DNA of 64,000 nt from Alphaproteobacteria bacterium. Its GTDB lineage: Bacteria; Pseudomonadota; Alphaproteobacteria; Micropepsales; Micropepsaceae. The position numbers and the translations under genes are program-made. Location of the stretch: NCBI GenBank assembly GCA_013697055.1, contig JACCXK010000049.1:1-64000 (forward strand), in the 5' to 3' direction. Each line of letters starts with the position of its first letter. Positions within the stretch are counted from its first letter, which is position 1. Shown one piece after another: positions 1,553-28,087 of the stretch. The notes beneath the pieces are model-generated. The model ran no database searches and was not told where the DNA came from. It was given only the letters and a program-made list of their open reading frames with translations.

Positions 1553-3055
1553 ATGAGAAAACTCGCCGGCGCGTTGAGCCTCCTGCTCGTGCTTCCCGCC
1601 GCGGCGCAAGACGCGCCACACGCAAAAGTCGCCCAGGGCGAACTGGCGGGCTTTTCCGATCGCGGCGCCGAGGCTTACCTGAACATTCCCTTCGGCGCCG
1701 CGCCGGTGGGCGATTTGCGCTGGAAGGCGCCTGCTCCGCCGCCTGCCTGGGGCGGCGTGCGCGACGCCACCAAATTCGGTCCCGCCTGCATCCAACAGGA
1801 CGCCAAGCCCAGCGCGCCCTGGGCCATAGAATATTATGTCCTGCCGCCTTACAGCGAAGACTGCCTGAGCCTGAACGTCTGGACGTCCCCCGGAAAAAAC
1901 AAGGCCGTGGCGCTGTTCATTCCCGGTGGCGGCTTTTCGCAGGGCGGCGGCGGCGTGCCGATCTATAACGGCGCACAGATGGCCAAGTCGGACATCGTCT
2001 TCATCACCATGAATTATCGCCAAAGCGCGGCAGGCTTTCTCGCCCATCCCGAGCTGGCGGCGGAGTCCGCCGGCCACGCCTCCGGCAATTATACCTTGAC
2101 GGACGTGCTGGCGGCGCTGCGCTGGATCAAGGCCAATGCCAAATCGTTCGGCGGCGATCCCGCCAAGGTGACGGTGATGGGCCAGTCGGCGGGGGCCGCC
2201 GCCATTGTCGCCCTGCTGCAATCGCCTTTGTCCAAGGGCCTGTTTCGCGCCGCCATCATCGACAGCGGCGTTCAGGCCGGCGTCCGCTTTGCTTCCAATG
2301 AAGCGCACGAAAAGGTCAGCGCCGACTGGGCGGCGAGCCGCGGCGCGACCACCCTGGCGCAGCTACGCACCCTGCCCGCGGAGGCGCTGGTGCCGGTGCG
2401 CGGACAGAATTTCCGCTTCGGGCCCTCCATCGACGGCCATGTGATGCCCGCTTCGGGTGCGAATGTGATGGACGTGCCGGTGCTGACGGGGTGGAACGCC
2501 GGTGAAGGGTCGGTGGGTGGCGGCCGGCTGTTGACCTCGCCGGTCCCCCGCACGGAATTCGAGAAACAGAACCGCTCGCGCTGGGGTATCGCCAACGAGA
2601 TATCGGCGCTGTATCCGTCAGGCGAGGACGCGCGGGAAGCGGCACAGCAATCCGGCCATGACGCTCTGATGATGAGCGGCGCGGCCTGGGCGGCGGGGCG
2701 CAAGAGCCCGGTCTATTATTATGACTTCGAGCACGTGATGCCGGGCGCCGAAGCCGCTCCCTATGGCAGCTATCATTCCTCGGAGCTGCCTTATGCGCTG
2801 GACTCGCTGCACACATTGAACCGGCCCTGGACCGAAGCCGATTACAAGGTCTCGGCCCTGACCCAGGCCTATTGGGTGAATTTCATCAAGAGCGGCAATC
2901 CCAATGGCGGCCAAAACAGCAAATATGCTCTGCCCCAATGGGCGCGGTTCGATCCGGCGGCGAATGATGTGATGGCGCTGGGCGCCACGCCGCATATGCG
3001 GCCGATCACGGAGAAAGCGCGCGCTGAGGCCTGGCTGCGCGCGATTTCCCGCTAA
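1553..3055 (+). CDS. Type-B carboxylesterase family protein, secreted
   Basis: Signal peptide, EDCLSLNVWT, GGGFSQGGG, GQSAGAAAI nucleophile elbow. Confidence 0.85.
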   Translation: MRKLAGALSLLLVLPAAAQDAPHAKVAQGELAGFSDRGAEAYLNIPFGAAPVGDLRWKAPAPPPAWGGVRDATKFGPACIQQDAKPSAPWAIEYYVLPPYSEDCLSLNVWTSPGKNKAVALFIPGGGFSQGGGGVPIYNGAQMAKSDIVFITMNYRQSAAGFLAHPELAAESAGHASGNYTLTDVLAALRWIKANAKSFGGDPAKVTVMGQSAGAAAIVALLQSPLSKGLFRAAIIDSGVQAGVRFASNEAHEKVSADWAASRGATTLAQLRTLPAEALVPVRGQNFRFGPSIDGHVMPASGANVMDVPVLTGWNAGEGSVGGGRLLTSPVPRTEFEKQNRSRWGIANEISALYPSGEDAREAAQQSGHDALMMSGAAWAAGRKSPVYYYDFEHVMPGAEAAPYGSYHSSELPYALDSLHTLNRPWTEADYKVSALTQAYWVNFIKSGNPNGGQNSKYALPQWARFDPAANDVMALGATPHMRPITEKARAEAWLRAISR

Positions 3056-3285
3056 CTGGTGGTGCCGCTGGTCGAGGGTGTGATGTTGTTGTTGTCGGTG
3101 GTAGAGGCAACCACGGCGATCACAGCCGCTACCGCCACAATACCCGCAACCAGCAGCACGCCGCCGGCTTCGATCTGAGCCTGTTTGGTGCCGGCGGGCT
3201 TGCCGGGCGTCAGTGCGCCATCGGCCGCAAAGGCGCTGGAAAAACACATGGTCATGGCAACAAGAGCCGCACCGATCGCGCGCAT
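3052..3285 (-). CDS. Small secreted/membrane protein with GKPAG-K-AQ motif and Asn/Ser/Thr tail; paralogue of 47212-47451
   Basis: SD TGGAGA 5 nt upstream of ATG (MRAIGAALV...); signal peptide, one hydrophobic segment, polar tail; similar to the second copy in this window. Confidence 0.65.
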   Translation of the reverse strand: MRAIGAALVAMTMCFSSAFAADGALTPGKPAGTKQAQIEAGGVLLVAGIVAVAAVIAVVASTTDNNNITPSTSGTTS

Positions 3286-3450
3286 GTCATTCTCCAAAAG
3301 AGTGTGACCGCCATTTTGGTACGGCGATTCTTAAGAAACTCCTAGATGGGGTTCATCCTGCCCCTTTATTAGCCACAAAAACAGGGACTTTCCGCCGCAC
3401 GGCGGGGTTCCGCGGGGCCTGTTAGCCTAACCAAACCCAAGAGGTGACCG

Positions 3451-4761
3451 ATGCGCGCGCTGCTGATTGCCCTCCTGTTTTTGACGGTCCCCGCCGCCGC
3501 CCATCCGGTGCTGATGATCTCCATCGATGGCCTGCGCAGCAAGGATGTCACCGACGCGCCGGCCCGCGGCATGAAGCTGCCCAACCTCTCGCGGCTGATG
3601 ACGGACGGCGCCTGGGCAGATGGCGTGCGCGACGTGCTGCCATCCGTTACCTATCCCAACCACACGACTTTGGTCACGGGCGTTGCGCCCGCTATTCATG
3701 GCATCGCCGGCAACCTGAGCTTCGATCCCTTCGGCAAGAACATGGAAGCCTGGTACTGGTATGCCGAGGACGTAAAGGTCCCCAGCCTGTTTGACGTGGT
3801 GCATGCCAAGGGCGCCAGATCCCTCGCCTTCGGCTGGCCGGCCACGGTGGGCAGCCTGTCCATCACCGACAACATCCCGGAATATTGGCGCGCCTACACA
3901 CAAGACGACGTCAAGGTGGTGCGCGCGGTATCGACCCCGGGCATGGCCGAGCGCATCAACAAGATCTCCGGCACCACCTTCAAGGCGACTTTGGGTGTCA
4001 CCCTGGCGGCGGACATGGCCAAGGCCAAGGCGGCGGCCGCCATCATCGCCGCCGATCACCCCCTGTTTTCGGCTGTGCACCTGTCCAGCCTGGACGAGAC
4101 CGAACACGAGCACGGCCCGGACACGCCGCAGAAGCGCGCCAACCTGGAAGCGCTGGACGATATCGTCGGAACCTTGGTGGCGGCGGCACGCAAAGCCCAG
4201 CCCGATCTGGTGGTGGCGCTGGTGTCGGACCATGGCTTTGCCGCCATCAGCCACGACGTGAACATGGTGACGGCCTTCGTCGAAGCCGGGCTGGTGACAT
4301 TGGACAAAGGCAAGGTGAAGGACTGGCAGGCGATGCCCTGGTACCAGGCCGGCTCGGACATCATCGTGCTGAAGGATCGCAATGATGCGGCGGTGAAGGA
4401 GAAAGTCGCCGCCTTGCTCAAGAAACTGGCCGCCGATCCAAAGAACGGCATTGCCGGCGTCATCGACCGCGCCGAGATCGCCAAACGCGGCGGCGCCAAG
4501 GAGGCCGATTTCTGGGTCAGCTTCGCGCCTGGCTTCAAGGGCGGCAAGGCGCTCACGGGACCGCTAATCACGCCCAGCGTGGACAAGGGCACCCACGGCT
4601 ATTTTCCCGACTGGGACGCCATGCGCTCCACCTTCCTGATCGCAGGACCGGACGTGCCGAAAAAGGCGCTGGGCGAAATCGACATGCACGACATCGCGCC
4701 CACCGTGGCGAAGATCATGGACGTGAAGCTGCCTGCCGCCACCGGCAAGCCGCTGTTCTAG
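3451..4761 (+). CDS. Alkaline phosphatase superfamily / ectonucleotide pyrophosphatase-phosphodiesterase-like
   Basis: VLMISIDGLRSKDV, YPNHTTLVTG, HDIAPTVAKIMDV motifs; signal peptide. Confidence 0.85.
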   Translation: MRALLIALLFLTVPAAAHPVLMISIDGLRSKDVTDAPARGMKLPNLSRLMTDGAWADGVRDVLPSVTYPNHTTLVTGVAPAIHGIAGNLSFDPFGKNMEAWYWYAEDVKVPSLFDVVHAKGARSLAFGWPATVGSLSITDNIPEYWRAYTQDDVKVVRAVSTPGMAERINKISGTTFKATLGVTLAADMAKAKAAAAIIAADHPLFSAVHLSSLDETEHEHGPDTPQKRANLEALDDIVGTLVAAARKAQPDLVVALVSDHGFAAISHDVNMVTAFVEAGLVTLDKGKVKDWQAMPWYQAGSDIIVLKDRNDAAVKEKVAALLKKLAADPKNGIAGVIDRAEIAKRGGAKEADFWVSFAPGFKGGKALTGPLITPSVDKGTHGYFPDWDAMRSTFLIAGPDVPKKALGEIDMHDIAPTVAKIMDVKLPAATGKPLF

Positions 4762-5278: not shown

Positions 5279-8200
5279 CTAATTTGTATCAGCTAATCTC
5301 GCAAGTTGCCCCAGCAGCGCCTTGGCGCCGGCCAGCCGAGCCTCCGGGGTCGGCCAGTCGCGGGTGACCACGATCTTCTGGTCGGGCCGCACCTTCATGG
5401 TGCCGCTATGCTGGTTGATGAACTGGATCAGCTTCATCGGGTTGGCAAAGCTGTTGCCGCGGAAGGCCACGGTGCCGCCCTTGGGACCGGCATCGATCTT
5501 CTCCACCCCGGCCTGCTTGGCGAGCTGCTTGATGGTGACGATCTCGAACAGGTGCTTGACCTCGTCGGGCAGCGGCCCGAAGCGGTCGATCAGTTCGGCG
5601 GCGAAGCGGTCGATATCCTGGCGCGTCTCGATCCCCGCCAGCCGCCGGTAGAGCGACATGCGGACATTGAGGTCGGCGACATAGCCTTCCGGGATCATCA
5701 CCGAGGCGCCCAGGTTGATGGCGGGCGACCATTGGTCGGTGACATCGGCTTCGCCGCCTTCGCGCATGCTGGAGACCGCCTCTTCCAGCATTTCCTGGTA
5801 AAGCTCGATACCAACCTCGCGGACATGGCCGGACTGTTCCTCACCCAAGAGATTGCCGGCGCCGCGGATGTCCATGTCATGGCTGGCGATCGAGAAACCT
5901 GCCCCCAGCTGGTCCAGCGACTGCAGCACTTCCAGCCGCCGCGTGGCGTTCTCGGTCAGCTTCTTGTCCGGCTGTGTGGTCAGATAAGCATAGGCGCGCA
6001 CCTTGGAGCGGCCGATGCGGCCGCGCAATTGGTAGAGCTGCGACAGGCCGAACTTGTCGGCCTTGTTGATGATCAATGTATTGGCGGTGGGGATGTCGAG
6101 GCCGGATTCCACGATGTTGGTGGAGACCAGCACATCGACCTTGCGCTCGTAGAAGGCGGTCATCACCTCTTCCAGCAGCTTGGGCGCCATCTGGCCATGC
6201 GCCAGGGCCGGTTTCACTTCCGGCACCACCTCCTTCAAAAAGGTCATGGCATCGGCCAGATCGGAAATGCGCGGCGCCACGAAGAAGCTCTGGCCGCCGC
6301 GATAATGCTCGCGCAGCAGCGCCTCGCGCACCACCAGCGGATCGAACGGCGTCACGAAGGTGCGCACCGCCAGCCGGTCGATCGGCGGCGTGGTGATCAG
6401 CGACAGGTCGCGCACACCCGACAGCGCCAGTTGCAAGGTGCGCGGGATGGGTGTGGCGGTCAGGGTCAGGACATGGACATCGGCTTTCAGATTCTTCAGC
6501 CGTTCCTTGTGCACCACCCCAAAATGCTGCTCCTCGTCCACGATGACCAGGCCCAGCCGCTTGAACTGGATGCTTTCGGCCAACAGGGCATGGGTGCCCA
6601 CCACGATATCCAACGTGCCTTCGGCCAGCGCTGCCTTGGTCTCGGCCGCTTCCTTGGTGTCCACGAAGCGCGACAGCTGCCGCACCTTCAGCGGAAAACC
6701 GGCAAAGCGTTCGGCAAAGCCGCGATAATGCTGGCGCGCCAGCAAGGTGGTGGGCACCACCACCGCCACCTGCTCGCCTGCCATGGCGGCAACAAAGGCG
6801 GCGCGCATGGCGACCTCGGTCTTGCCGAAGCCGACATCGCCGCACACCAGCCGGTCCATGGGACGGCCGGCCGCCAGGTCGTCCACCACTTCGTTGATGG
6901 CGCGCTCCTGGTCTTCCGTCTCCTGGTAGGGGAAGCGGGCGGAGAATTCGTCATACAGGCCCGCCGGCGGTTCCACCGGCGGCAGGGATTTGAGCTGGCG
7001 GGCGGCGGCGATCTTGATCAGCTCGGCGGCGATGGCGCGCACCCGCTCCTTCATCTCGGCCTTGCGCTTCTGCCAGCCCGCGCCGCCGAGGCGGTCGAGC
7101 TGCGCGCCCTCGTCCGAGCCGTAGCGGGTCAGCAGTTCGATATTCTCGACCGGCAGGAACAGCTTGCCGCCGTCGTATTGCAGTTCCAGGCAGTCATGCG
7201 GCGCGCCCAGCGCGTCGATCGCCTTCAGGCCCAGGTAACGGCCCACGCCATGCTCGATATGGGTGACCAGATCGCCCGGCGTCAGGGACGAGGCTTCGGC
7301 GATGAAATTCTGCGCCCGGCGGGCGCGGCTGGCGGCGCGCACCATGCGGTCGCCCAGCACATCCTGTTCCGACAGGATGGCGAAGTCCGGTCCTTCAAAG
7401 CCGCGCTCGATGCCGAGGCAGGCAATGCCGAAGGCGGTTGGGTCCAGCTTCAGCGCCCCAGGCCAGTCCGCCACCTTCTTGATGGGCGTGACGCCGTGAT
7501 CGGACATCACCCCGCCCATGCGTTCCAGCGAACCTTCGGTCCAGCTCGCCACCAACACGCGCTTGCCGGCCGCCTGCAGGGTTTTCAGGTGATCGGCGGC
7601 GGCCTGGAATACATTGAGATTGCCGCCCTGGCGCTCCGGCGCGAAATCACGGCCCAGGCGGCCGCCGGCATCCAGACTGGTCATGCTGTCCGGCGCCTGG
7701 AAGGGCGAAAGCTCGCGCAGGATGTTCTTGCCCAGCGCCGCATTCCATTCCGCATCGCTGAGATACAGCGTTTCGGGCTTCAATGGCTTGTAAGGCGGCC
7801 CCTTGATGGCATGTTTGTCGTCTTTCTGGTGCCGGAACTGTTCGCGGGTCTCGTAATAGTCCCGGATCAGCTCCAGCCGCGCCGCCTTGGACTCTTCCGC
7901 CTGGTGGCCCAGCAGCACCAGGCAGCGCGGCAGGTAATCGAACAGCGTGTCCAGGTAGCTGTAGAACAGCGGCAGCCAATGCTCCATGCCTTGGGTCTTG
8001 CGACCGGCGCTGACGCTTTCATACAGCGGGTCATCGCCCGCCGCGCCAAAGGCCGCGACATAACCGGTGCGGAATCGGCTGATCGCCTGCGCATTCAGCG
8101 GCGCTTCGCTGGCGGGCAGAAGCGTAACGTCCGGCACCGGCGTCTTGTCCGACAGTTGCGTCTCGGCATCGAAGCGGCGAATGGCATCCAGGGTCGAACC

Positions 8201-13654: not shown

Positions 13655-15247
13655 CTACCAGAGCGATGGCGTCAGCACCCGCGCATCGCTCAGGGCGAAG
13701 CCGGACCAGTCCAGCGCCGGCAAGGGCGCAGCGGCGGCAGCCAATATCTCTTCCAGTTCTTTCAGTGAGGTCACGCCCGTCACCGCCACATCAACCTGCG
13801 GACAGGACAGCACAAAACCAAGCGCGGCGGCCAGCGGGGTGCTGCCTGCTGCTGCAATCCAGTCCCGCGCGTCTTTCAGCAGCGGCGCGGCGGCGCGCAG
13901 ATTCTCCGGCGGGTTTTCCAGAAACAACAGGCCCTGCAGGAAGATGGAGCGGGCATGGACTTCCACGCCCAATTCCTTCAGCCGCGCCAGCGAGCCATCG
14001 CGCAACAGCCGCTGATCCAGCAGGCTGAACGGCACCTGCATGGCATCGGGCCGGAAGCGCCGGGCCAGCGCGGCCGGATCATCCGCGACATAAGCGGAAA
14101 TGCCGATGCCGCCAACAGCGCCCTCGTCCTTCAATCCGCGCAACGCAAGCCACAGCGCTTCACCGTCCGTGCCCAACAAGTCGGACACGGCATGGACCAG
14201 CAACAGGTCGACGCGTCCCAGCGCGGCGACGGATTGGCGGGCGCGGGCGATCACCGCCGGGACACCCTGTTTCATGCTGATGGTCTTGGTGACGATGCGG
14301 AAGGCGCTGGTATCGGCCTGCGCCAGCACCTGTTCGGCCTCGCCGTAATTGGCGGCGGTATCCAGCAGGCCCACCCCGGCCCGCGCCGCCCGCGCCAGGA
14401 TGGCGCGCGCCTCGGCCGGCGGCACCTGGCCGCGCACATTCGAGATGCCATAGGCCTGGCCGAACTGCACCGTGCCGATGCCCAGCCTCCGGGCCGCACC
14501 CGGGCGTTCCACCTCGGTCACCAGCTTCTGGCGGACATGCGCATTCATGGCGCGGTATTGCGGTTCGTTCCGCAGCAACGTGAGGACGGCGGTGAGCGGC
14601 AGCTCGCCGGCCACCGCGCCAAGGCGCTCGTAAACAGCGCGCAGGAAAGCGAGATCTTCCGGCGTGTCCACGCTGAGACGCTCGGACGGCACCGCCAGCG
14701 GCGCATAGGCCGCCACGGTGACGGTTTTGACGGCGCCCGGATGATACTTGAAATAGCTGGTGACATGCTCGCGCGCGATCTCGTCGTCGCCCGCATGGAT
14801 GGTAAGCCAGTCCAGACCTGCGCGGGAAAACGCATCGGCGCCTTCATGGGCGCAAAGCGCGCCGGCTTCCAGCTGCACAAAATCGCCGTCGCCCAGGCTT
14901 TGCACCAGATAATCGATCAGGCCCGGATCGATCAGCGGCGCATCGCCGGTGATGCGCAGCAGGGTCGCCGCGTCCGTCGCTTCTGCCGCCAGGCGGTAAC
15001 GCTCGAGCACATTCTGCAGGGGGCCGCGCACGCACACAATGCCTTCACCCGCACAGAAGCTCTCGATGGCGTCGTCAGCAGGATCGGTGGACGTCGCAAC
15101 GGCGATCCGGTCGACCGTCCGGCATTGCCGCAGGCGATGGATGCTGTGCCACAACAGCGGTTTGCCCGCGACCGGCATCAGCACCTTGCCCGGCAGGCGC
15201 GAGGAGCCCATGCGTGCCTGGATGACGGCGACGACGGGACCGGTCAT
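13655..15247 (-). CDS. SpsF-like cytidylyltransferase fused to aldo/keto reductase
   Basis: N-term VIQARMGSSRLPGKVL, NVLERY, ITGDAPLIDP; C-term RLGIGTVQFGQAYG, LLDTAANYGEAE, TKT, LLVHAV. Confidence 0.85.
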   Translation of the reverse strand: MTGPVVAVIQARMGSSRLPGKVLMPVAGKPLLWHSIHRLRQCRTVDRIAVATSTDPADDAIESFCAGEGIVCVRGPLQNVLERYRLAAEATDAATLLRITGDAPLIDPGLIDYLVQSLGDGDFVQLEAGALCAHEGADAFSRAGLDWLTIHAGDDEIAREHVTSYFKYHPGAVKTVTVAAYAPLAVPSERLSVDTPEDLAFLRAVYERLGAVAGELPLTAVLTLLRNEPQYRAMNAHVRQKLVTEVERPGAARRLGIGTVQFGQAYGISNVRGQVPPAEARAILARAARAGVGLLDTAANYGEAEQVLAQADTSAFRIVTKTISMKQGVPAVIARARQSVAALGRVDLLLVHAVSDLLGTDGEALWLALRGLKDEGAVGGIGISAYVADDPAALARRFRPDAMQVPFSLLDQRLLRDGSLARLKELGVEVHARSIFLQGLLFLENPPENLRAAAPLLKDARDWIAAAGSTPLAAALGFVLSCPQVDVAVTGVTSLKELEEILAAAAAPLPALDWSGFALSDARVLTPSLW

Positions 15248-16105
15248 TTATGCTGGCGTCCAGCTTTCGCGCACATGTTTGAAGGGGCGCAAGCCATCCG
15301 CCGGATCGGCGCGCCATTCCCGGTCGGGCAGTTCGGCCGGCACCGGTTCCTTGAAGCCCTTGCCGTCGGCGGTCATCGCCTGCCGGATGCGCGCAATCAC
15401 CGGGGTGATTTCCTGCGGCAACCAGCAATGGCCGGTGTGATATTCCTCGCCGGTGCCGTCCAGGTCCAGGTGCAATTCAATGGTTTGCGCATTCCAGTGA
15501 TGCACCGCGCGTTCGATCACCGCAGGCGAGCGGGAATGATCCGACCAACCGGTCTTGGCGCCCGTTTCGCGGCGGATAGCCTCGATGGCCGAAAGATTGG
15601 ACTGCTCCGGCGGCGACGGATAGGCGGAAACACAGTGCAGAACAGTGATGTCCTTGGCGCCGGACTTCTCCAACGTGGACACCGCCGCCTTGATCTCGGG
15701 CATGACCGCCATGCCGGTGGAGATGATCACGGGCTTGCCTGTCTTGGCGCAGGCCTTCAGCAGGTCGGTCCACAGCAGCTCATAAGACGCCACCTTATAG
15801 AAGGCGACGTAGGGCTCCAGCTCCGCCACCGCTTCCAGATAGAAAGGCGTGCAGGAGAACTCCACGCCCTTTTCCTGGCAGCGTTTCGCCAACGGAGCGA
15901 GATGCTCCAGTGGCAATTCCCAGGCGACGCGCTTTCGGTGCTGCGAGCTCTTGGCCAGGATCTCGGGCGCAAAAAGTTGCGCGACGCGGAAAAGCTGGAA
16001 TTTTACGGCATCGAAACCGGCCTCGGCGGCGGCATCCACGAAAGCGATGGAGCGGTCCAGGTCCTGGGCATGGTTGCTGGAGACTTCGGCGATGAACTTG
16101 ACCAT
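15248..16105 (-). CDS. NeuB/SpsE-family PEP-dependent sugar-acid synthase-like protein without apparent SAF domain
   Basis: FIAEVSSNHAQDLDRS, AVKFQLF, FSCTPFYLEAV, IISTGMA, LHCVSAYPSP, GWSDHS; only 285 aa. Confidence 0.85.
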   Translation of the reverse strand: MVKFIAEVSSNHAQDLDRSIAFVDAAAEAGFDAVKFQLFRVAQLFAPEILAKSSQHRKRVAWELPLEHLAPLAKRCQEKGVEFSCTPFYLEAVAELEPYVAFYKVASYELLWTDLLKACAKTGKPVIISTGMAVMPEIKAAVSTLEKSGAKDITVLHCVSAYPSPPEQSNLSAIEAIRRETGAKTGWSDHSRSPAVIERAVHHWNAQTIELHLDLDGTGEEYHTGHCWLPQEITPVIARIRQAMTADGKGFKEPVPAELPDREWRADPADGLRPFKHVRESWTPA

Positions 16106-17317
16106 TCAGGCCTCCACCAGGAATTCGACGCGCGCCACAGCGGCTTGCGCCGCGGCGACGGCTTGTTCGCGGGTCGGGGCGCAGGAAATGACATAGCCGA
16201 CGCGCGAAGGATGATTTTCCAGCGCCGCGATCGTCTCGCCGGGACGCGCCCAGACATCGACTTTCCGGATATGATCGGCGCCCTTGGCCGCCGGCAGGCC
16301 GCGAATTTCGCGGATGGTGCCGGGGGTGGGGAAGAAATAGCGCTGCGAGGTGGCGAGATTGCGGGTGGGCACAAAGCGCGCCGGGTCGATCCCGTTACCC
16401 ACCGCCATGTCCACCAATATGTCCACAATATCCACGCCGGTGGACCATGGCACCTTGTCGTAACAGAAATTGCCGCCGGACAGCCGCGCCGCGATCTCGA
16501 TGACATAGGGCTTGCCGTCATCGCCGAAGATCATGTCGCCCTTGGCAGGACCCCAGTCGATGCCGAGGGCGCGGGCAGCCTTCTCGAACTCGGCTTCGAC
16601 GGCGCGCTTGTCGGTGTCGTTCAGGAGGGTGGGAATGTCGCCGCCATCCTCGACCATGAAGGGCACGGCATCGTCCAGCCGGGCATAATTGCGGTCGGCA
16701 AAGCCGGTGCAATAAAACTTGCCGTCATGCACCAGCCCTTCGGTGCTGATCTGCAGGCCGGTGATGAATTTCTCCGCAATTACTTCGCCCGAATAGGCAA
16801 AGCCGCGCGAATATTCGAAGGCAGCTTGGATATCCATGTCGGCGCTCAGGCGCTGCACGCCCCGGGCGCCGGAATTGTCCACCGGCTTGATGACAATGGG
16901 AAAACCGGTTTTTGCGATGAAGGATTTGAGATCGGCCAGGCCGGCGATGCGGGCGAACAGCGGCACATTCACGCCCGCTTCGCGCAGCTTTTCCTTCATG
17001 TGCAGCTTGTGGACGCACAATTCCGCCACCGCGACGGGAATGTGCCGGGCGCCCAGCGCCTCACCCGCTGCCGCGACCATGTGGGGAATGTCGCTGGCGA
17101 TGGTCATCACGCCGTCAATTTTCGACGGGTAATATCTCACGAAGTTCAGGATGGCGTCCTTGTCGCGGGTGCTGACCAGATGGAATTCGTCGGCCATGGC
17201 CCGGCCATCGGCCTTGGAGTTCATGTCCAGCACAACCGTGCGGATGCCCTTGGCCTTGGCGGCGGCGATGGCCGCGACCTGTTCCTTGCCGGCCCCCAGG
17301 ATCAGCAATGTCTTCAT
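16106..17317 (-). CDS. ATP-grasp domain carboxylate-amine ligase-like protein
   Basis: MKTLLILGAGKEQVAAIAAAKAKG Rossmann start; FPIVIKPVDNSGARGV; YVIEIAARLSGGNF. Confidence 0.85.
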   Translation of the reverse strand: MKTLLILGAGKEQVAAIAAAKAKGIRTVVLDMNSKADGRAMADEFHLVSTRDKDAILNFVRYYPSKIDGVMTIASDIPHMVAAAGEALGARHIPVAVAELCVHKLHMKEKLREAGVNVPLFARIAGLADLKSFIAKTGFPIVIKPVDNSGARGVQRLSADMDIQAAFEYSRGFAYSGEVIAEKFITGLQISTEGLVHDGKFYCTGFADRNYARLDDAVPFMVEDGGDIPTLLNDTDKRAVEAEFEKAARALGIDWGPAKGDMIFGDDGKPYVIEIAARLSGGNFCYDKVPWSTGVDIVDILVDMAVGNGIDPARFVPTRNLATSQRYFFPTPGTIREIRGLPAAKGADHIRKVDVWARPGETIAALENHPSRVGYVISCAPTREQAVAAAQAAVARVEFLVEA

Positions 17318-18054
17318 GACATCAACATCCCGCCGTTGATGTTCAGGGTCTGGCCGGTGACATAGGCGGCGCCCTCGGACGCCAGGTACAGCACACCGGC
17401 GGCGATCTCTTCCGGCTCGGCGATGCGGCCTACCGGGATCTGGGCGGCCTTCCGCTTGCCGGCCTTCGACTTCAACTCTTTCCGGATCATGTCCGTGGCT
17501 ACCAGCCCCGGCGCGATGGCATTTGCGGTGATGCCGGACGGCGAATAGAGCCGCGCCAGCGAATGGGTCAGGTTGATCAACCCGGCCTTGGCGGCGGCAT
17601 AATGGACCTGGCGCATGCCGCCCCACTGTCCGCCGATGGAGGTGATGTTGATGATGCGGCCCCATTTCTTCGCCAGCATGCCGGGCAAAATTTCCTGCAC
17701 CACGATGAAGGCGCCGCGCAAATTGACCGCCAGCATCCGGTCCCAGTCGGCATCCGTCAGGGCCTCGAACGGCTTTTCCTGCACCAGCGCGGCGTTGTTG
17801 ACCACAATGGCGACGTCCGCTTTGAAATGCGCGGCGGCAGCAGCGATGGCGCGCTTGACGGAAGCGCGGCTGGCAATGTCGATCTTGATCGCCAAGGCGC
17901 CGGAGAATGCGTCCTGCAGCTTTTGGGCGCCGGCGCGGTTGGAATTATAGCCACAGGCGACGCGATAGCCGGCCTCCAGCAACGCCAGCGCCGCGGCACG
18001 GCCGATGCCGCCGCCCGCCCCGGTCACCAGCGCCAATTTGGGCTTCGCCGCCAT
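17314..18054 (-). CDS. SDR-family oxidoreductase
   Basis: LVTGAGGGIGRAAALAL, NNAA, YAAAKAGL, VTGQTLNINGGMLM. Confidence 0.9.
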   Translation of the reverse strand: MAAKPKLALVTGAGGGIGRAAALALLEAGYRVACGYNSNRAGAQKLQDAFSGALAIKIDIASRASVKRAIAAAAAHFKADVAIVVNNAALVQEKPFEALTDADWDRMLAVNLRGAFIVVQEILPGMLAKKWGRIINITSIGGQWGGMRQVHYAAAKAGLINLTHSLARLYSPSGITANAIAPGLVATDMIRKELKSKAGKRKAAQIPVGRIAEPEEIAAGVLYLASEGAAYVTGQTLNINGGMLMS

Positions 18055-19803
18055 TCAGAACGACCATTCGTTGGACATGTCGTCCAGGGTGTGACCGCCC
18101 AGCAGCATGGGCAGCAGGTCTTCGGTGGGGTCAACCTGGCAGTGGATCAGCACCGCGCCCTTGCGCGACAGCGCGCCCCGCAGCGTTTCCGCCATGCCGT
18201 CCGTCGAACTGATGGAGACCGCTTCAATGCCATAGGCCCGGGCGATGGCCGCGAAGTCCGGATTGAACTTGTCGCCCGTGGCGGGATGGGACTTCCAGTT
18301 CTGGCGCTGGAACTGCGCCACGATGGACAGAGCGTGGTTGTCCAGCACCACAATCTTGATGTCGAGCCCCCGCTCCACAATGGTCGCCAGCTCCTGGATG
18401 TTCATCTGCAGGCTGCCGTCACCGACAAAGCAGATCACCGTGGCGTCCGGGGCGGCGATCCTGGCGCCGATGGCGGTGGGCAAATCGAAGCCCATGGTGC
18501 CGTGGCCCGAAGAAGTCAGCAGCACGCGTGAGGGTGAATCGAAATCGAAATGGCGCGGCACCCAGACCTGGTGTTGCCCGACACCGGTGGTTGCGATCAC
18601 AAATTTGTCCTGTACCGCCTCGTTCACCGCGATGATCACGTCCTGCGGCTTGGGCAGCGCGCCGGGCTTGCCGGTGACAAGCGGATATTGCTTCTTCCAG
18701 GCGGCGATCTGGGCCATCCAGCGGCCGGTCTTGCCCGACGGCTTGGGCAAGGCGCGGTCCAGCGCCGCCAGCGCGGCGCGGGCATCGGCGTTGATCTGAA
18801 GATCCAGCGGCACCCGGCTGTGATTGAGTTCATTGACGTCCAGGTCAATGCGGGCGATGCGGCCTTTCTCCACAGTCTTGTCCGGCAGGCTGCCGGTCTG
18901 GCGCAGGTGAAAGGTGGTGCCGATGCCGATCAGCAGATCGGCCTTGTACATCGCCATGTTGGCATACTGGCTGCCGGCATAGCCGCACAGGCCCAGCGAA
19001 AGCTCGCCGGTGGAAGGATAGGCGCCCATGCCCGGCATGCTCATGGTCACGGGAATGCGGTGGCGGTCGGCCAGCAGGCGCAACTCTTCCCAGGCACGGC
19101 ACGCGATCACGCCGCCGCCCGCCAGGATCACCGGTCGCTCGGCTTCGCCAATCCATTGCGCCAGCATTTCGATCTTGTCAGCCGGGACGAACGGCACCAC
19201 CTCGGTGCGTTTTTCGGGCGGCGACGGCGCCGCGCAAATGCCCCGCTGGATGTTCATCGGCAGGTCCACCACAACCGGGCCCTGGCGGCCGCTGCGCGCC
19301 AGGAAGAAAGCCTCTTCCATCACGCGCGGAAGATCGGCGATATCCGCGACCAGAAAGGCCGCCTTGGTGACGGGCTTCATCAGGTCCACGGTGTCCACTT
19401 CCTGGAAACCGCGCTGCTTGATGGGAAGGCTGCCGCGCATGTCGGAGGTAGCCACCTGGCCGGTGATCACCACCATGGGGACATTGTCGTAATAGGCATC
19501 GGCGATGGGCGTCACCGCATTGGTCACGCCCGGGCCGGAGGTCACCATGAACACTGCTGTCTGGCCGGTCATGCGGGCATAGCCCAGCGCGGCATAGCCG
19601 GCGCCCTGCTCGGTGCGCGGGCAGACGATCTCGATCCTGGAGCGCTTTTCGATGCGGTCCAGGATTGGCGCTATGGTGCCGCCCGGATAGATGAACACAT
19701 GGCGGACGCCATGGCGCAGCAAACTGTCCAGCACCAGGTCGGCGCCCAGCACATCGGGCGCCAGCTGCGCCTGGGGCACGGCAGCGGATTCAACTATTGA
19801 CAT
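18055..19803 (-). CDS. Acetolactate synthase-like thiamine diphosphate-dependent enzyme
   Basis: IYPGGTIAPILD, RTEQGAGYAALGYARMTG, GDGSLQMNIQELATIVERGLDIKIVVLDN; start MSIVESAAV. Confidence 0.88.
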   Translation of the reverse strand: MSIVESAAVPQAQLAPDVLGADLVLDSLLRHGVRHVFIYPGGTIAPILDRIEKRSRIEIVCPRTEQGAGYAALGYARMTGQTAVFMVTSGPGVTNAVTPIADAYYDNVPMVVITGQVATSDMRGSLPIKQRGFQEVDTVDLMKPVTKAAFLVADIADLPRVMEEAFFLARSGRQGPVVVDLPMNIQRGICAAPSPPEKRTEVVPFVPADKIEMLAQWIGEAERPVILAGGGVIACRAWEELRLLADRHRIPVTMSMPGMGAYPSTGELSLGLCGYAGSQYANMAMYKADLLIGIGTTFHLRQTGSLPDKTVEKGRIARIDLDVNELNHSRVPLDLQINADARAALAALDRALPKPSGKTGRWMAQIAAWKKQYPLVTGKPGALPKPQDVIIAVNEAVQDKFVIATTGVGQHQVWVPRHFDFDSPSRVLLTSSGHGTMGFDLPTAIGARIAAPDATVICFVGDGSLQMNIQELATIVERGLDIKIVVLDNHALSIVAQFQRQNWKSHPATGDKFNPDFAAIARAYGIEAVSISSTDGMAETLRGALSRKGAVLIHCQVDPTEDLLPMLLGGHTLDDMSNEWSF

Positions 19804-21002
19804 AGGGCAACCATTTTCTGGCCGGTCTCGCATTCGCTGAGACGGCCGCCGGACTTGGAGGAGAGGATTTTCACGCTGCCGAAATGACGCTCCAGGATGG
19901 CACGCAGTTCGGGCGCGGAATATTCGCGCACATGCCACGGCACCACGGGAATTTCGCCGTCGCTGTTCTGGGGCGTGGAGCAGATGAAAGCGCCGCCCGG
20001 CTTCACCACCCGGCGGACTTCCTTCACGAAGGTATCCACCTGGTCCACCGGCAGATGCTCGATCACTTCCATTGCCGTGGCGCCGTCGACCGACGCATCT
20101 TCGAGCGACAGGCCGAATGCATTGTCCACGGCATAGCGGATGTTGCGGGGATCATTGCGCTGGTTGTTGTTGGCGATCAGGCCTTCATTGATGTCCACCC
20201 CCAGCACCTGCCCGACATTGGGCGACAGGATGCGGCAGCCATAGCCGTCGCCACAGGCGATATCCAGCACGTGATCGTTCCCGCCGAAGCGATTGCGCGC
20301 GAACTCGTAGCTTTCGAACAACGGGTTGGAAATCTTGCTCGCCTCGCCCGCATCAACATGCATGCGGTCATCGGCGAAGATCTGCTGCGCCAGGTCGCGC
20401 ACCTTCAGCATGTATTCGCGGTCATACTGCGGTACATTTTCATACACCAGGGCGCCGAATGTCTCGCGGTGATGCTCGATGAAGCCGGCATAGCGGGCGT
20501 AATTGACGGCGCGGTCGTCCGGCAGGGCGGCGATGGCAGCCGCCACCTGGTCCAGGAGCTTGCGGGTATAGATCTTGCCCGCGAAATTGGGGTGAAACGC
20601 GTCGGGCAGTGAGACAAACTTGGCGTTGTGCTCGTGCAGGAAAGCCAGCATGTCACCCAGCAGAGCGGTGTCGATAAAGCAGTGCTGGCCCATCACATGC
20701 ACGGCGACATCGGCACCCATCGCGTCCAGCGCGCCGGTCATGCGCTCCAACACATTCTCGCGGGAACCGAAATGGCAGGTCACGCCATGCGCGGCGGCGA
20801 TGTCGCGGAAGATCTGGTTGCCCGGATCATCCGGCACCGCAATCGTCACGGCGGAAACCTGCGGCATGGACTGCAGCCGGCCGATCACCTCTTCCACCGC
20901 ATACTTGCCGTCGATGCGGGCCAGCGAAAAATCCCGCGCCCCGGCCCAGCCGCAATGATGCGCTTGAATCAATCCAACGATCTTCGGAGGGGCAATTTTC
21001 AT
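19794..21002 (-). CDS. Degenerate SpsF-like nucleotidyltransferase domain fused to class I SAM methyltransferase
   Basis: N-term LIQAHHCGWAGARDF...ENVLERM...VMGQHCFID aligns with SpsF; C-term VLDIACGDGYGCRIL, EVIEHLPVDQVD. Confidence 0.8.
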   Translation of the reverse strand: MKIAPPKIVGLIQAHHCGWAGARDFSLARIDGKYAVEEVIGRLQSMPQVSAVTIAVPDDPGNQIFRDIAAAHGVTCHFGSRENVLERMTGALDAMGADVAVHVMGQHCFIDTALLGDMLAFLHEHNAKFVSLPDAFHPNFAGKIYTRKLLDQVAAAIAALPDDRAVNYARYAGFIEHHRETFGALVYENVPQYDREYMLKVRDLAQQIFADDRMHVDAGEASKISNPLFESYEFARNRFGGNDHVLDIACGDGYGCRILSPNVGQVLGVDINEGLIANNNQRNDPRNIRYAVDNAFGLSLEDASVDGATAMEVIEHLPVDQVDTFVKEVRRVVKPGGAFICSTPQNSDGEIPVVPWHVREYSAPELRAILERHFGSVKILSSKSGGRLSECETGQKMVALCQ

Positions 21003-22047: not shown

Positions 22048-22067
22048 TCAAAGCCGAGGTGTCCCCG

Positions 22068-23816
22068 ATGGCCAAGGCCCTGCCCCAGCCGACCCTGAAC
22101 ATGCGTGCCGGCGTGGATGCGCGCCTGGAGGCCATCGACAAGCTGGAAGCCCTGGTCAACGAGGTGGTGAAGGAAAAGGCGCGCCACCGCTCCAACGTCT
22201 TCCTCAAGCGGTCCATCCGCACCTGGCGCAAGGGCGACGTCGTCAGAAGCGGCCAGTGGGCGCTGAAGGCGACCGAGGCCGATCCTGACAACTCCAAGGC
22301 CTTTCACGTCCTGGCCATGGCGCTCGAACGGATGGGCCATCTGCACAAGGCGCTGGTGACCTACGAGCGCGCCTTTGAGCTGGACCCCAGGGATCCCGAA
22401 CTCTTGATCAATCTGGGCCTCACCGCCTGGAACCTCAAGCTGACCGACGGCGCCGCCAAGATGTTCCAGCTCTACATCGCCTCCTGTCCGGACTCGCCCT
22501 TGGGCTACAACAATCTGGGCAGCGTGCAGAGCGACATGGGCGAGGTCGATGTGGCGATCGAAACTCTGCGCGCCGCGCTCTACCGCATGCCCGAGGAAGC
22601 CATGCTGTGGAATTCGCTCGCCACCGTGCTGGCGGAAAACAGCCGGGCCCAGGAAAGCGTCATCTTCTACGAGGAAGCCGCGCGCCTGGCGCCCGGATTC
22701 GCCCGCGCCTATCACAATCTGGGCTATGCCTATCTGCACCTGTCGCAGATGGACAAGGCGCTTATCGCCTATGACCGGGCGCTGGAACTGGTGATCGACC
22801 CGGCCGAGCGTATCGAGACCCGGCATTCGCGCAGCATCTGCCTGATCGGGCTCGGTCAGGTGGAAGAAGGCTTTCGCGAATATGAGATCCGCAACAATGA
22901 ACGCTTCCGCTGCTATTTCCACCACATGATCAACGCCCCCAAGTGGCAGGGCGAGGATGTGCGCGGCAAGAAGCTGCTGCTGGTGGGCGAACAGGGCCTG
23001 GGCGACGAGATCATGTTCTCCAACATCCTGCCCGATGCCTATGAGGCAGTGGGCGAGACCGGCAAGCTGCAGATCTGCGTCGATCCGCGCATGATCCCGC
23101 TCTACCAGCGCTCCTTCCCAAGGGCCGAAGTCGGCGGCTATGACGACCGCACCCTGATCGACGACAATGGCAACAAGGCGCTGCGCCTGGTGCCGTTCCT
23201 CAAGGACAATCTGCCCGATTATTGGGCGCCGATGGGCACCGCCCTGCAATATTACCGCAAGTCGCTGGACGCGTTCCCGCACAAGCCATTCCTCTTTCCC
23301 GATGACAAGCGCGTCGCGGCGTTCAAGGAAAAGCTGGCGGCCCTGCCCGGCAAGAAGGTCGGCATCTGCTGGCGCTCCATGCTGATGACCGGCAAGCGCG
23401 CCAAGTATTTCTCGCCCATCGACGCCTGGGGCGACCTGCTCAAGACCCCCGGCATCACCTTCGTGAACCTGCAATATGGCGACAGCGCACCGGACATCGC
23501 CCGCGCCGAGGGGAAGTTCGGCGTCAAGATCCATTCTATGGAAGGCCTGGACCTGAAGGACGATATCGACGGCACCGCCGCGCTGTGCCGCGCGTTGGAC
23601 TTGGTCGTCTCCGCCCCCACCGCCGCCGCCCATACCGCGGCCAGCGTGGGCGCCGAAGTCTGGTACCTGTCGGTCGGCCTGGGCTGGCCGCAGCTGGGCA
23701 CCGCCGAGTATCCCTGGTACGCCAACACCCGCGTCTATTGGCCGGAAAAGTTCGGCGACTGGGACGCGATCATGCCGCGCTTCGCCAGCGACCTGGCGGC
23801 GTTTGCCGCTTCCTGA
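22068..23816 (+). CDS. TPR protein with C-terminal GT9/OGT-like glycosyltransferase domain (FlmG-like architecture)
   Basis: TPR arrays (PDNSKAFHVLAMALERMGHLHKALVTYERAFELDP; LGYNNLGSVQSDMGEVDVAIETL); LLLVGEQGLGDEIMF, VGICWRS, VSAPTAAAHTAASVGAEVW. Confidence 0.8.
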   Translation: MAKALPQPTLNMRAGVDARLEAIDKLEALVNEVVKEKARHRSNVFLKRSIRTWRKGDVVRSGQWALKATEADPDNSKAFHVLAMALERMGHLHKALVTYERAFELDPRDPELLINLGLTAWNLKLTDGAAKMFQLYIASCPDSPLGYNNLGSVQSDMGEVDVAIETLRAALYRMPEEAMLWNSLATVLAENSRAQESVIFYEEAARLAPGFARAYHNLGYAYLHLSQMDKALIAYDRALELVIDPAERIETRHSRSICLIGLGQVEEGFREYEIRNNERFRCYFHHMINAPKWQGEDVRGKKLLLVGEQGLGDEIMFSNILPDAYEAVGETGKLQICVDPRMIPLYQRSFPRAEVGGYDDRTLIDDNGNKALRLVPFLKDNLPDYWAPMGTALQYYRKSLDAFPHKPFLFPDDKRVAAFKEKLAALPGKKVGICWRSMLMTGKRAKYFSPIDAWGDLLKTPGITFVNLQYGDSAPDIARAEGKFGVKIHSMEGLDLKDDIDGTAALCRALDLVVSAPTAAAHTAASVGAEVWYLSVGLGWPQLGTAEYPWYANTRVYWPEKFGDWDAIMPRFASDLAAFAAS

Positions 23817-23817
23817 C

Positions 23818-25776
23818 ATGACGGCGCGGCGCGAAGGCGGCACGCCCCCCGTCATTCCGCTCACTTCGGGCGTGCTGCACTGCTTCGCCCTGTTTCACCT
23901 CAATCTCGCCTTCTCTTCCATTGAGGAAGAGCAGCGCGCCACGGTGGTGCGCGATTGCTATGGCCCGCTGCTGGACCTGGCGGAACGCCATGGTCCCATC
24001 GGCATCGAGGCCACCGCCTATACCTTGCTGGCCATCGCCAAATGCGATGCGAACTGGCCGGCGCGGCTGAAAGACCTGATCGGTCGCGGCCGGGTTGAAT
24101 TCATCGGCTCCGGCTATGCCCAGGCGATCGGGCCGTTGCTGCCCGCCGACATGGTCGCCGCCAATCTGCGGCTGGGCAACGACGCCTATCGGAAGATGCT
24201 GGGCCTGACGCCGCGCATTGGCCTGGTCAATGAGCAAACCTGGTCGGGCGGCCTGGTCGGCCAATATCTCGATGCGGGCTATCAGGCCTTGCTGGTGGAC
24301 TGGGACAATGTCGCCAACTTCCATCCCGGCTGGACGCAACCCATGCGCTATGCGCCGCAGCGGGCGCTGGGCAGCGACGGCCGCGACATCCCCATCCTGT
24401 GGACCAACACGGTCGCCTTCCAGAAATTGCAGCGCCTGGCGCATGACGATATTTCGCTGGACGAGTATCTGGCCTTCGTCTCCGGCCAGCGCGGCGAGGA
24501 AGATCGCACCGTCTGTCTGTATGCCAGCGACGCGGAGATTTTCGGTTTCCGCCCCGGCCGCTACCGCACCGAGGAAAGCAACCAGGGCGGCACGGAATGG
24601 ATGCGCATCAACGCCGCGCTTGAAGGCCTCCGCGACCTGCCCGGCGTGCGGCTGGTGTCTCCCTCTGGTGCCTTGAACGCGGCTCACGCAGCTCCCATCC
24701 GGCTGGAAACCGCGCCCTATCCCATCCCGGTGAAAAAACAGCGCAAGTACAATGTCACCCGCTGGGCGGTCAGCGGCCGCGACGACATCGCCATCAATGC
24801 CGCCTGCCAGCGTATCCATGACGCCCTGAAACGCACCGACGCCCCGGATGACGACTGGCGCGAACTGTGCCGGTTATGGGCCAGCGATTTTCGCACCCAC
24901 ATCACCCAAAGCCGCTGGGAGCGCTATTGCCGTGATCTGGCCGCGCTGGAAACACGCCTGGGCACAGCGCCTGCCGTTGCCCTGCCCGCAGCCGCCGGCG
25001 AACCCATCACGGATCGTCATATCGAGATTGAAACCCGATCCCTGCGCGTGCGGCTGGACCGCCGCAGGGGCCTCGCCATCCAGCGCGCCGGCTTCGCGCC
25101 CGATTTCACGCCCCTGATCGGCGGCATCGCCCATGGCCATTTCGACGACATCGCCCTGCAGGCCGACTGGTACACGGGCGACTGCGTGTTCGAGGCGCCA
25201 GGCGAACCCAAGGTCACCGACCTGGACTGGGCCACCACCCATATCGCGCGCGCCCCGGGCGGCAAGGTCGTGGTGCATGGCGTGATCGCCTCGCCGCTGG
25301 GCCCCATCGTCAAGATCATGACCTTCCATGCCCACAGCCCACGCATCGACTTCGACCTGGAATTACAATGGGAGAATTGGGGCCGTGGCGCGCTTCGGTT
25401 GGGGCACATCACCCTGTTGGGCGAAGCCTTCGACGAACAGAGCCTGTGTTTCACCACCACCAATGGCGGCGCGCCGGAGCGCTTCGCCCTGGCCGGCCAG
25501 ACGGTCGAGCATGGCGCGCCGGTATCGTTCCTGGTGTCGGCGGCCTGCGCCCTCGGCATGACCGAAGGCTGGATCGAACTGGCCGACAGGAGCCGCAAGG
25601 TCCGGATTGAGGTGGACCGGGCGGTGGCGCCGCTGGTCGGGCTGATCAATCACCGCAGCACGGGCGGCAAGCTGTTCTGCCAGTTGCTGCTGTCGGCGCT
25701 GGAGCTGGACGATACCCGCAAGCCCTCGCCTTATGGCAACGGTCCCCGGCGCTTCCGCTTTTCCATTATGGGCTGA
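23818..25776 (+). CDS. Glycoside hydrolase family 57-like protein
   Basis: LVNEQTW (nucleophile region), LYASDAEIFGFRPGRY (DAE-FG region), C-terminal beta-sandwich-like half. Confidence 0.7.
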   Translation: MTARREGGTPPVIPLTSGVLHCFALFHLNLAFSSIEEEQRATVVRDCYGPLLDLAERHGPIGIEATAYTLLAIAKCDANWPARLKDLIGRGRVEFIGSGYAQAIGPLLPADMVAANLRLGNDAYRKMLGLTPRIGLVNEQTWSGGLVGQYLDAGYQALLVDWDNVANFHPGWTQPMRYAPQRALGSDGRDIPILWTNTVAFQKLQRLAHDDISLDEYLAFVSGQRGEEDRTVCLYASDAEIFGFRPGRYRTEESNQGGTEWMRINAALEGLRDLPGVRLVSPSGALNAAHAAPIRLETAPYPIPVKKQRKYNVTRWAVSGRDDIAINAACQRIHDALKRTDAPDDDWRELCRLWASDFRTHITQSRWERYCRDLAALETRLGTAPAVALPAAAGEPITDRHIEIETRSLRVRLDRRRGLAIQRAGFAPDFTPLIGGIAHGHFDDIALQADWYTGDCVFEAPGEPKVTDLDWATTHIARAPGGKVVVHGVIASPLGPIVKIMTFHAHSPRIDFDLELQWENWGRGALRLGHITLLGEAFDEQSLCFTTTNGGAPERFALAGQTVEHGAPVSFLVSAACALGMTEGWIELADRSRKVRIEVDRAVAPLVGLINHRSTGGKLFCQLLLSALELDDTRKPSPYGNGPRRFRFSIMG

Positions 25777-26931
25777 TCAGGCCGTGGCGCCCTGAAGCGC
25801 CGATGCCACCCGTTCGACATCGTTCGCGGTCATGGCCGGGAACATGGGCAGAGTCAGGATTTTCTTCGCCGCCGCTTCCGCCACCGGCGCGATGCCAGGC
25901 CTATAACCCAGTTTGCGATAGTGGGAGTGCAGATAAACCGGCGCGTAATGGACGTTGGCGCCGATGCCTTCGGCGCGCAGGCGTGCAAAAGCGCGGTCGC
26001 GGTCGACATGGTCGGCCAGCTTCACCACATAGAGATGATGCGCGTTGGTGCGGTCCGCACGGGTCGTGAGCGGCGTGACTTCCGCCAGACTTGCCAGCGT
26101 TTCGTCATATAGCGCGGCGATGCGCTGGCGAGCGGCCACCCAGCCGGACAGGCGGGTGAGTTGCGCCATGCCAAGCGCGCATTGCACATCCGGCAGGCGA
26201 TAGTTGAAGCCCAGCTCGGTCATGTCATAGGCGTGCGCCCCGCTGGCCTCGCGGCTGCGATGATCGCTGTCGATGCCGTGATTGCGGAAGCGGCGCATAT
26301 GCGCCGCCATGCCGGCATCCTTCGTCACCGCCATGCCGCCTTCGCAGGTGGTGAGATGCTTGACCGGGTGAAAGGAGAAACAGGAGATATCGCCCAGGGT
26401 ACCCGCGCTGCGGCCTTTGTAGGTGGCGCCCGGCGCATGACAGGCATCCGCAACAATCGAGATGCCCCTGCCCCGCACCAGCTCGCGCAAGGCGTCATAG
26501 TCGGCGGGCTGGCCGGCATAATCCACCGCCACAATGGCTTTGGTCTTGGGCGTGATCTTCATCGCCACCGAGACCGGGTCGATCAGAAGCGTGTCGACTT
26601 CGACATCGACGAACACCGGCGTAGCGCCTTCATAGAGCGCCGCATTGGCGCTGGCGGCGAAGGTGATGGCCGGCACGATGACTTCGTCCCCGGGCTGTAT
26701 GTTCAGGGCGCGCATGGCGCAATGCAGGGCGGCGGTGCCGCTATTGACCGCCACGCCTTCCGCCGCGCCGCAATGGGCGACAAAGGCTTTCTCGAATTCG
26801 GAAACGCGCGGACCGGTGGTCAGCCAGCCCGAGCACAGGGCTTCGACGACGGCCTTGATGTCGGCGTCGGCGATTTCCTGCTTGCCGTAGGGAAGAAAGG
26901 CGGCCTCCCAGGGGCCGTCACGGTCAGGCAT
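25777..26931 (-). CDS. pseC: PseC-type UDP-4-keto-6-deoxy-AltNAc aminotransferase (DegT/DnrJ/EryC1)
   Basis: FLPYGKQEIADADIKAVVEALCSGWLTTGP, VNSGTAALHCAM, FSFHPVKHLTTCEGG. Confidence 0.85.
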   Translation of the reverse strand: MPDRDGPWEAAFLPYGKQEIADADIKAVVEALCSGWLTTGPRVSEFEKAFVAHCGAAEGVAVNSGTAALHCAMRALNIQPGDEVIVPAITFAASANAALYEGATPVFVDVEVDTLLIDPVSVAMKITPKTKAIVAVDYAGQPADYDALRELVRGRGISIVADACHAPGATYKGRSAGTLGDISCFSFHPVKHLTTCEGGMAVTKDAGMAAHMRRFRNHGIDSDHRSREASGAHAYDMTELGFNYRLPDVQCALGMAQLTRLSGWVAARQRIAALYDETLASLAEVTPLTTRADRTNAHHLYVVKLADHVDRDRAFARLRAEGIGANVHYAPVYLHSHYRKLGYRPGIAPVAEAAAKKILTLPMFPAMTANDVERVASALQGATA

Positions 26932-27922
26932 AGGCCATGGTGAGCAGGGTTTGAAGCCCCCGCCCGTCCAATTGTTCAGGATTGCGGTCGCTGGAATAGC
27001 TGAAGCCATCCGCCACTGGCTTGCCGCCGCGATGCAGATAAGCATCCCGCGCGGCATGGGCAAAGCTCTGCAGGATCACATAGCGATCTTCCATCTCCAC
27101 GGTGCAATGGGCGTCGTCAGCCGGGATCATGGTCTCATGCAGCTTCTCGCCCGGACGGATGCCGATGACATGCTGCTTGTGGCCGGGGCTCACCAGGGTG
27201 GCGAGTTCAGGAATGGTGGTGGAGGGAATCTTGGGGACATAGATTTCGCCGCCCTTCATCATCTCCATGCTGGAGAGCACGAAGTTCACGCCCTGGGTCA
27301 AGGTGATCCAGAAGCGGGTCATGCGTTCGTCGGTGATGGGCAGGCTGTCGGCGCCCTCCGCGATCAGCTTCTTGAAGAAGGGCACCACCGAGCCTCTGGA
27401 GCCGAACACATTGCCATAGCGCACCACCGAGAAGCGGGTGCCGTCGGCGCCGGCAAGGTTGTTGGCGGCGACGAAAATCTTGTCCGAGGCCAGCTTGGAG
27501 GCACCGTAAAGGTTGATCGGGTTGGCGGCCTTGTCGGTGGACAGCGCCACGACGCGCTTGACGCCGACGCGCAGACACGCGCTGACCACATTCTCGGCGC
27601 CGAACACATTGGTGCGGATACATTCAAAGGGATTGTATTCGGCGGTGGTGACCTGCTTCATGGCGGCGGCATGGACCACGAAATCCACGCCGTTCAGCGC
27701 CAGCTCCAGCCGGTCCCGGTCGCGTACATCGCCGATGAAATAGCGGATGAAGGGATATTTCTCGATTGGGAATTCCTGCTGCATCTCGAACTGCTTGAGT
27801 TCGTCGCGGCTGAACACGATCAGCCGGCGCGGCTTGTATTGCGCGAGCACCGTCTTGATGAAATGCTTGCCGAAGGAACCGGTGCCGCCGGTAACCAGCA
27901 CCGCCTTGTCGTTGAGGTCCAT
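26924..27922 (-). CDS. pseB: UDP-N-acetylglucosamine 4,6-dehydratase (inverting), PseB-like
   Basis: KAVLVTGGTGSFGKHFIKTVL, FSRDELKQFEMQQEF, AAAMKQVTTAEYNPFECIRTNV, STDKAANPINLYGASK. Confidence 0.9.
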   Translation of the reverse strand: MDLNDKAVLVTGGTGSFGKHFIKTVLAQYKPRRLIVFSRDELKQFEMQQEFPIEKYPFIRYFIGDVRDRDRLELALNGVDFVVHAAAMKQVTTAEYNPFECIRTNVFGAENVVSACLRVGVKRVVALSTDKAANPINLYGASKLASDKIFVAANNLAGADGTRFSVVRYGNVFGSRGSVVPFFKKLIAEGADSLPITDERMTRFWITLTQGVNFVLSSMEMMKGGEIYVPKIPSTTIPELATLVSPGHKQHVIGIRPGEKLHETMIPADDAHCTVEMEDRYVILQSFAHAARDAYLHRGGKPVADGFSYSSDRNPEQLDGRGLQTLLTMAYA

Positions 27923-28087
27923 CCAGGGCTGCGAGAAATCGCGCAGGCCGGAGAAGATCGGCGCCGGTGCCGCGACGCTCTGGGGCGTGGCAATGGCAAG
28001 CACAGCAGATGGACTCATGGCCTGTTAATCCTGTTTATCAGGCCTGAGTGTGAAACCTCGCGGTTAAAAAGCTCTGAAGCTTAAGTA

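Follow-up and report, generated by a model that had tools for sequence, protein, structure and literature searches.

A closely related described system is the sfm locus of Shewanella oneidensis MR-1, whose flagellins carry a 274 Da mono-N-acetyl nonulosonate together with a 236 Da substituent that bears zero to two methyl groups, at least one of them an O-methyl (PMC3765264). Loss of sfmA-D gives non-motile cells with flagellin of unmodified size, and the deletions made in this region covered sfmA-E only (PMC3765264). Flagellin lysines are also methylated in MR-1, by an enzyme that was left unassigned (PMC3765264). The locus encodes a flagellin-modification SAM methyltransferase, SfmD (SO_3264). 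For the nearby genes SO_3266-SO_3269, no mention was found in the open-access literature. In Caulobacter, the flagellin glycosyltransferase FlmG is a protein of 596 aa with N-terminal TPR repeats and a C-terminal glycosyltransferase at residues 309-596 (PMC7591256).

The window, the whole 64,000-nucleotide stretch of alphaproteobacterial DNA that was analysed, contains a gene in which an SpsF-like pseudo-cytidylyltransferase is joined to a methyltransferase. It lies among the following genes, with identities to MR-1 proteins unless stated otherwise:

13655-15247, minus strand: intact SpsF cytidylyltransferase fused to an aldo-keto reductase
15248-16105, minus strand: NeuB/PseI-type nonulosonate synthase, SfmA-like (about 61%)
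16106-17317, minus strand, start approximate: ATP-grasp/L-amino-acid-ligase-like ligase, SfmE-like (37%)
17314-18054, minus strand: SDR ketoreductase, SfmC-like (49%)
18055-19803, minus strand: acetolactate-synthase-like ThDP enzyme, SfmB-like (about 45% to an SfmB-type protein of Paraglaciecola, which shares 71% with MR-1); its start overlaps the 3' end of the fusion gene by 10 bp
19794-21002, minus strand: fusion of an SpsF-like pseudo-cytidylyltransferase and a class I SAM methyltransferase, 402 aa
20999-21928, minus strand: Methyltransf_23 methyltransferase, 309 aa, overlapping the start of the fusion gene by 4 bp
22059-23816, plus strand: TPR protein of 585 aa, with a TPR N-terminus and a C-terminal region without Pfam match
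23803-25776, plus strand: GH57-like protein
25777-27063, minus strand: PseC aminotransferase (open reading frame, true start uncertain)
26924-28018, minus strand: PseB dehydratase (open reading frame, true start uncertain)

Read along the minus strand, the order is Methyltransf_23, fusion, ThDP enzyme, SDR, ATP-grasp, NeuB and SpsF-aldo/keto reductase. These seven genes abut or overlap and apparently form one operon; PseB, PseC, the GH57-like gene and the TPR gene lie just upstream. NeuB, SpsF, PseB and PseC mark the surroundings as a nonulosonate (NulO) cluster. Like an Sfm-type flagellin nonulosonate cluster, it holds homologues of sfmA, B, C and E. No SfmD-type methyltransferase was found in the window's cluster, and its place in the operon is held by the Methyltransf_23 gene and the fusion. 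The TPR protein has an FlmG-like layout. The aldo-keto reductase domain of 13655-15247 scores barely above the NCBIfam KidO equivalog cutoff (245.6 versus 244 bits).

The coordinates assigned to the fusion gene in the initial annotation are correct, with the gene on the minus strand, the start ATG at 21002 and the stop at 19794-19796. The strings it had cited (NVLERM, VMGQHCFIDTALL, IQAHHCGWAGARDFS and LDIACGDGYG) are likewise all present. The protein is organized as follows:

20367-21002, minus strand: N-module, residues 1-212, SpsF/KdsB fold with the catalytic signature replaced (AlphaFold2, Foldseek, hhalign)
20931-20972, minus strand: motif 1, LIQAHHCGWAGARD, residues 11-24, in place of IQARMGSSRLPGK; Q13, A14, W19, G21 and D24 invariant in an alignment of eight sequences
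20679-20696, minus strand: motif 4, VMGQHC, residues 103-108, in place of ITGDAP; G105 invariant in eight of eight sequences, H107 in seven
19797-20324, minus strand: class I SAM methyltransferase domain, residues 227-402 (Methyltransf_11, E 1.5e-20)
20238-20270, minus strand: SAM motif VLDIACGDGYG, residues 245-255

Methyltransf_11 is the sole Pfam match of the protein. As had been claimed, the C-terminal half keeps a normal SAM motif: LDIACGDGYG (motif I) and the acidic D270 after strand 2, both class I methyltransferase traits, are conserved. This half shares its fold with the sugar O-methyltransferases AtmM and RebM (6uv6, 3bus), which in contrast to the fusion have no SpsF module and act on an unrelated substrate. 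A Pfam search gave no match for the N-module of the window protein; those of its relatives match weakly (NTP_transf_3, E 1.4e-4; CTP_transf_3, E 3.8e-4). Its kinship to SpsF, which had first been proposed from an alignment of the two window genes, holds at three levels. BLASTP aligns it with the intact SpsF domain of 13655-15247 at 28% identity over 106 residues (E 1e-8), and a profile-profile comparison (hhalign) with SpsF gives a probability of 98% (E 5e-14, 182 columns); the best PDB match of the profile is KdsB. AlphaFold2 models the whole protein with a mean pLDDT of 89.4 and pTM of 0.85, and the N-module alone, with a pLDDT of 90.5, adopts a cytidylyltransferase fold. The nearest structure found by Foldseek is the Leptospira cytidylyltransferase 6oew (TMq 0.75, rmsd 2.2), followed by KdsB, IspD and NeuA.

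Like SpsF/CTP_transf_3 proteins (6oew and window 13655-15247), the N-module retains the fold, the strand order and the NVLER motif with its Arg, but ARMxSSRLPGK, GDxP and REHV are replaced and a new conserved QA-x4-W-x-G-x2-D is found. The CMP-NulO synthetases KdsB, NeuA and PseF belong to the same fold class (TM 0.52-0.67); in contrast to these, the N-module lacks the triphosphate-binding Arg/Lys set and the metal Asp, and is fused to a methyltransferase. SpsF R12, R17 and K21 correspond to H15, G18 and A22 in the window protein and to non-basic residues in most members, while SpsF R83 is retained as R87. The metal Asp of GDxP (SpsF D102) is Q106 in the window protein and Gln, Ile or Leu in its relatives. 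The VDTPED segment of SpsF falls outside the region alignable by hhalign. The ARMxSSRLPGK signature is replaced in every complete member, and alignment extends to the whole family the loss, first noticed in this one protein, of the CTP-phosphate Arg/Ser/Lys and the metal Asp. The N-module would accordingly be catalytically inactive.

Most complete members carry a signature of their own, consisting of Q-A-x4-W-x-G-x2-D, an invariant Arg, G-x-H and P-D-x-F. In the eight-sequence alignment, Q13, A14, W19, G21, D24, P57, L85, R87, A91, G105, P133 and R202 show no variation, and H107, D134 and F136 almost none; a divergent member outside this alignment (L041) deviates at D24 and in the G105-H107 stretch. 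Before residue 200 there are 11 invariants, nine of which sit at most two positions from SpsF invariants; this is matched by two of 194 circular shifts, an indicative figure given the eight sequences. Between the window protein and L030, dN/dS is 0.25 for the N-module and 0.26 for the methyltransferase, and Shewanella pairs stay below 0.14 in both halves. Because the invariants cluster at SpsF-conserved positions and the N-module is under the same constraint as the methyltransferase, the pocket seems to have been rebuilt and kept up instead of decaying. The recurrence of the family, together with the purifying selection that acts on the N-module, led us to reject the idea of a decaying pseudo-copy confined to the window genome.

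Full-length two-domain homologues occur in other alphaproteobacterial assemblies, Kordiimonas marina, several Shewanella, Paraglaciecola and further gammaproteobacteria; a relative of the window genome carries a fusion homologue (77%) that is cut off by the contig end. Six further loci (L031-L036), matching the methyltransferase half only, were set aside. A scan of the genome collection with the single window protein gave no match, and a scan with the family alignment recovered relatives. The fusion is rare: counting the window, four of the 96 genomes from its family and two of 399 from its phylum have it. A search of 385 alphaproteobacterial genomes (E≤1e-12) brought up no N-module standing alone. 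The fusion is a conserved pseudo-enzyme that has apparently not been studied so far. The window protein and one homologue on a proteobacterial MAG contig (L028:297-1508) form a subfamily separate from the Shewanella one (tree support 0.999). That contig holds two fusion copies (297-1511 and 6979-8193), one per subfamily, along with two ATP-grasp genes and radical-SAM genes. As the window protein belongs to the divergent subfamily and both subfamilies coexist on this contig, the two may differ in substrate, and the window protein may be a paralogue of its MR-1 counterpart.

That counterpart lies on a locus (L053) which we infer to be the MR-1 sfm region, since gene lengths of 290, 255, 395 and 412 aa and gene order fit the published sfmA, C, D and E (PMC3765264). 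It encodes 400 aa (L053:9746-10948), directly follows sfmE in convergent orientation and, by position, would be SO_3266; the genes after it are, in order, Methyltransf_23, GH57, SpsF, PseC and PseB. The MR-1 homologue shares the two-domain build and cluster content of the window and 30% identity with the window protein over 396 aa (E 1e-56; N-module alone, E 4e-16). It belongs, however, to the other subfamily, with D-G-I-H and S-P-L-x-R-M where the window protein has M-G-Q-H and N-V-L-E-R-M. The fitting length of SfmD, 395 aa, raised the candidate that SfmD is itself the fusion, which was rejected: SfmD, although encoded in a homologous cluster, is another type of methyltransferase, whose N-terminal part has a CxxC-type stretch and which lacks an SpsF domain. 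At the MR-1 locus, the fusion is a gene of its own in convergent orientation.

Five other Shewanella genomes (L054-L058) possess the NeuB-ThDP-SDR-SfmD-ATP-grasp core, and the 20 kb read there showed no fusion gene and also no ortholog of the Methyltransf_23 gene next to it. Since neither gene showed up in that stretch and a Methyltransf_23 gene usually precedes the fusion where it occurs, the two seem to be an optional cassette added to a shared core, a pattern that would be expected for enzymes adding optional methyl groups. In most of these five genomes, a B12-binding radical-SAM protein and a glycosyltransferase-2-like gene follow the SpsF gene instead.

Across alpha- and gammaproteobacteria, a recurring set comprises PseB, PseC, SpsF, NeuB, the ThDP enzyme, SDR, ATP-grasp, GH57, Methyltransf_23 and the fusion, with the Methyltransf_23 gene preceding the fusion in most clusters. 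Homologous clusters adjoin flagellins or Maf genes, which makes flagellin glycan tailoring the likely role; in Kordiimonas (L027 and L029) the adjoining genes are flagellin-like, as assigned from sequence. The recurrence of the fusion in flagellin-sugar clusters, among them a place next to that of S. oneidensis, makes a part in the decoration of flagella probable. On balance, we favour the fusion as a methyltransferase that tailors the sugar of a flagellin nonulosonate (pseudaminic-acid-like) pathway, with an altered SpsF module holding the substrate. The points against this reading are the 30% identity to the MR-1 protein and the divergent subfamily, one locus (L019) where the fusion is present without the cluster, the absence of flagellin genes within the window itself, and the presence of SfmD as well in MR-1. 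The window genome encodes two flagellins, on a contig other than the window's.

In the favoured reading, the C-terminal half is probably active as a class I SAM methyltransferase and most likely methylates oxygen. The N-module would be an ancient relative of the pathway's SpsF that lost its triphosphate- and metal-binding residues and had its pocket rebuilt. Without CTP chemistry, it most likely binds a nonulosonate (free, CMP-linked or acylated) and presents the sugar to the methyltransferase. We infer the ligand, the methyl acceptor and the methyl position; a CMP-sugar, which the initial annotation had put forward, is a possible ligand. More tentatively, a duplicated sugar-activating enzyme may have become a non-catalytic reader of a carbohydrate or nucleotide sugar, its rebuilt pocket putatively made of QA-x4-W-x-G-x2-D, Arg, GxH and PDxF. 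Such a reader might select the nonulosonate form to be methylated, coupling methylation to completion or CMP-activation before transfer to flagellin.

The N-module could instead be purely structural, its fold kept for dimerization or scaffolding of the methyltransferase with no ligand bound. Both the absence of the catalytic residues and the low identity of the N-module across the family (21-27%) agree with this, but the invariant residues gather at pocket-motif positions and not along the whole module, which suggests a ligand and makes a mere scaffold unlikely. Alternatively, the module might still act as a nucleotidyltransferase or other sugar-nucleotide enzyme through other residues, for which the conserved D24, D59, H107 and D134 offer new acidic and His residues at equivalent positions. 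No Arg/Lys set for the triphosphate remains in motif 1, however, and the metal Asp has given way to Gln, Ile or Leu. In addition, nearly all full clusters encode an intact SpsF alongside the fusion, which leaves no need for a second cytidylyltransferase. Retained catalysis is therefore very unlikely.

A further alternative concerns the methyltransferase, whose target could lie outside the NulO and its substituent, for instance flagellin lysines or a free acid precursor before coupling. The lysine methylation of MR-1 flagellins, still in want of an enzyme (PMC3765264), would leave room for this. The tight linkage of the fusion to sugar genes and a sugar-nucleotide-fold module that suits a sugar ligand better than a peptide nonetheless render such a target distinctly improbable.

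If the favoured reading holds, the MR-1 homologue and its neighbouring Methyltransf_23 enzyme would be the leading candidates for the optional O-methyl groups on the flagellin glycan, naming enzymes for an open point in a studied model. The fusion would also exemplify a nucleotidyltransferase fold reused as a substrate-recognition domain. A genetic test is at hand, as the homologue adjoins the genetically characterized S. oneidensis operon, in a laboratory strain that is not pathogenic.

The clusters vary in other respects. Their ThDP step is of two types, DXS/transketolase-like in L011, L020-L024, L026 and L041 and acetolactate-synthase-like in the window, L018, L025 and L053, while the other genes are the same. 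The GH57-like protein of the window (23803-25776, plus strand) has homologues in nearly all of these nonulosonate clusters. Several also encode a protein of 319-346 aa without Pfam match (L011, 7500-8459; L020, 7959-8945; L041, 8334-9374). Elsewhere in the window genome (L061, contig C100), a second SpsF gene (2-1096, minus strand) adjoins two flagellin genes (2138-4253, minus strand) and encodes an extra C-terminal stretch that is cut by the contig end.
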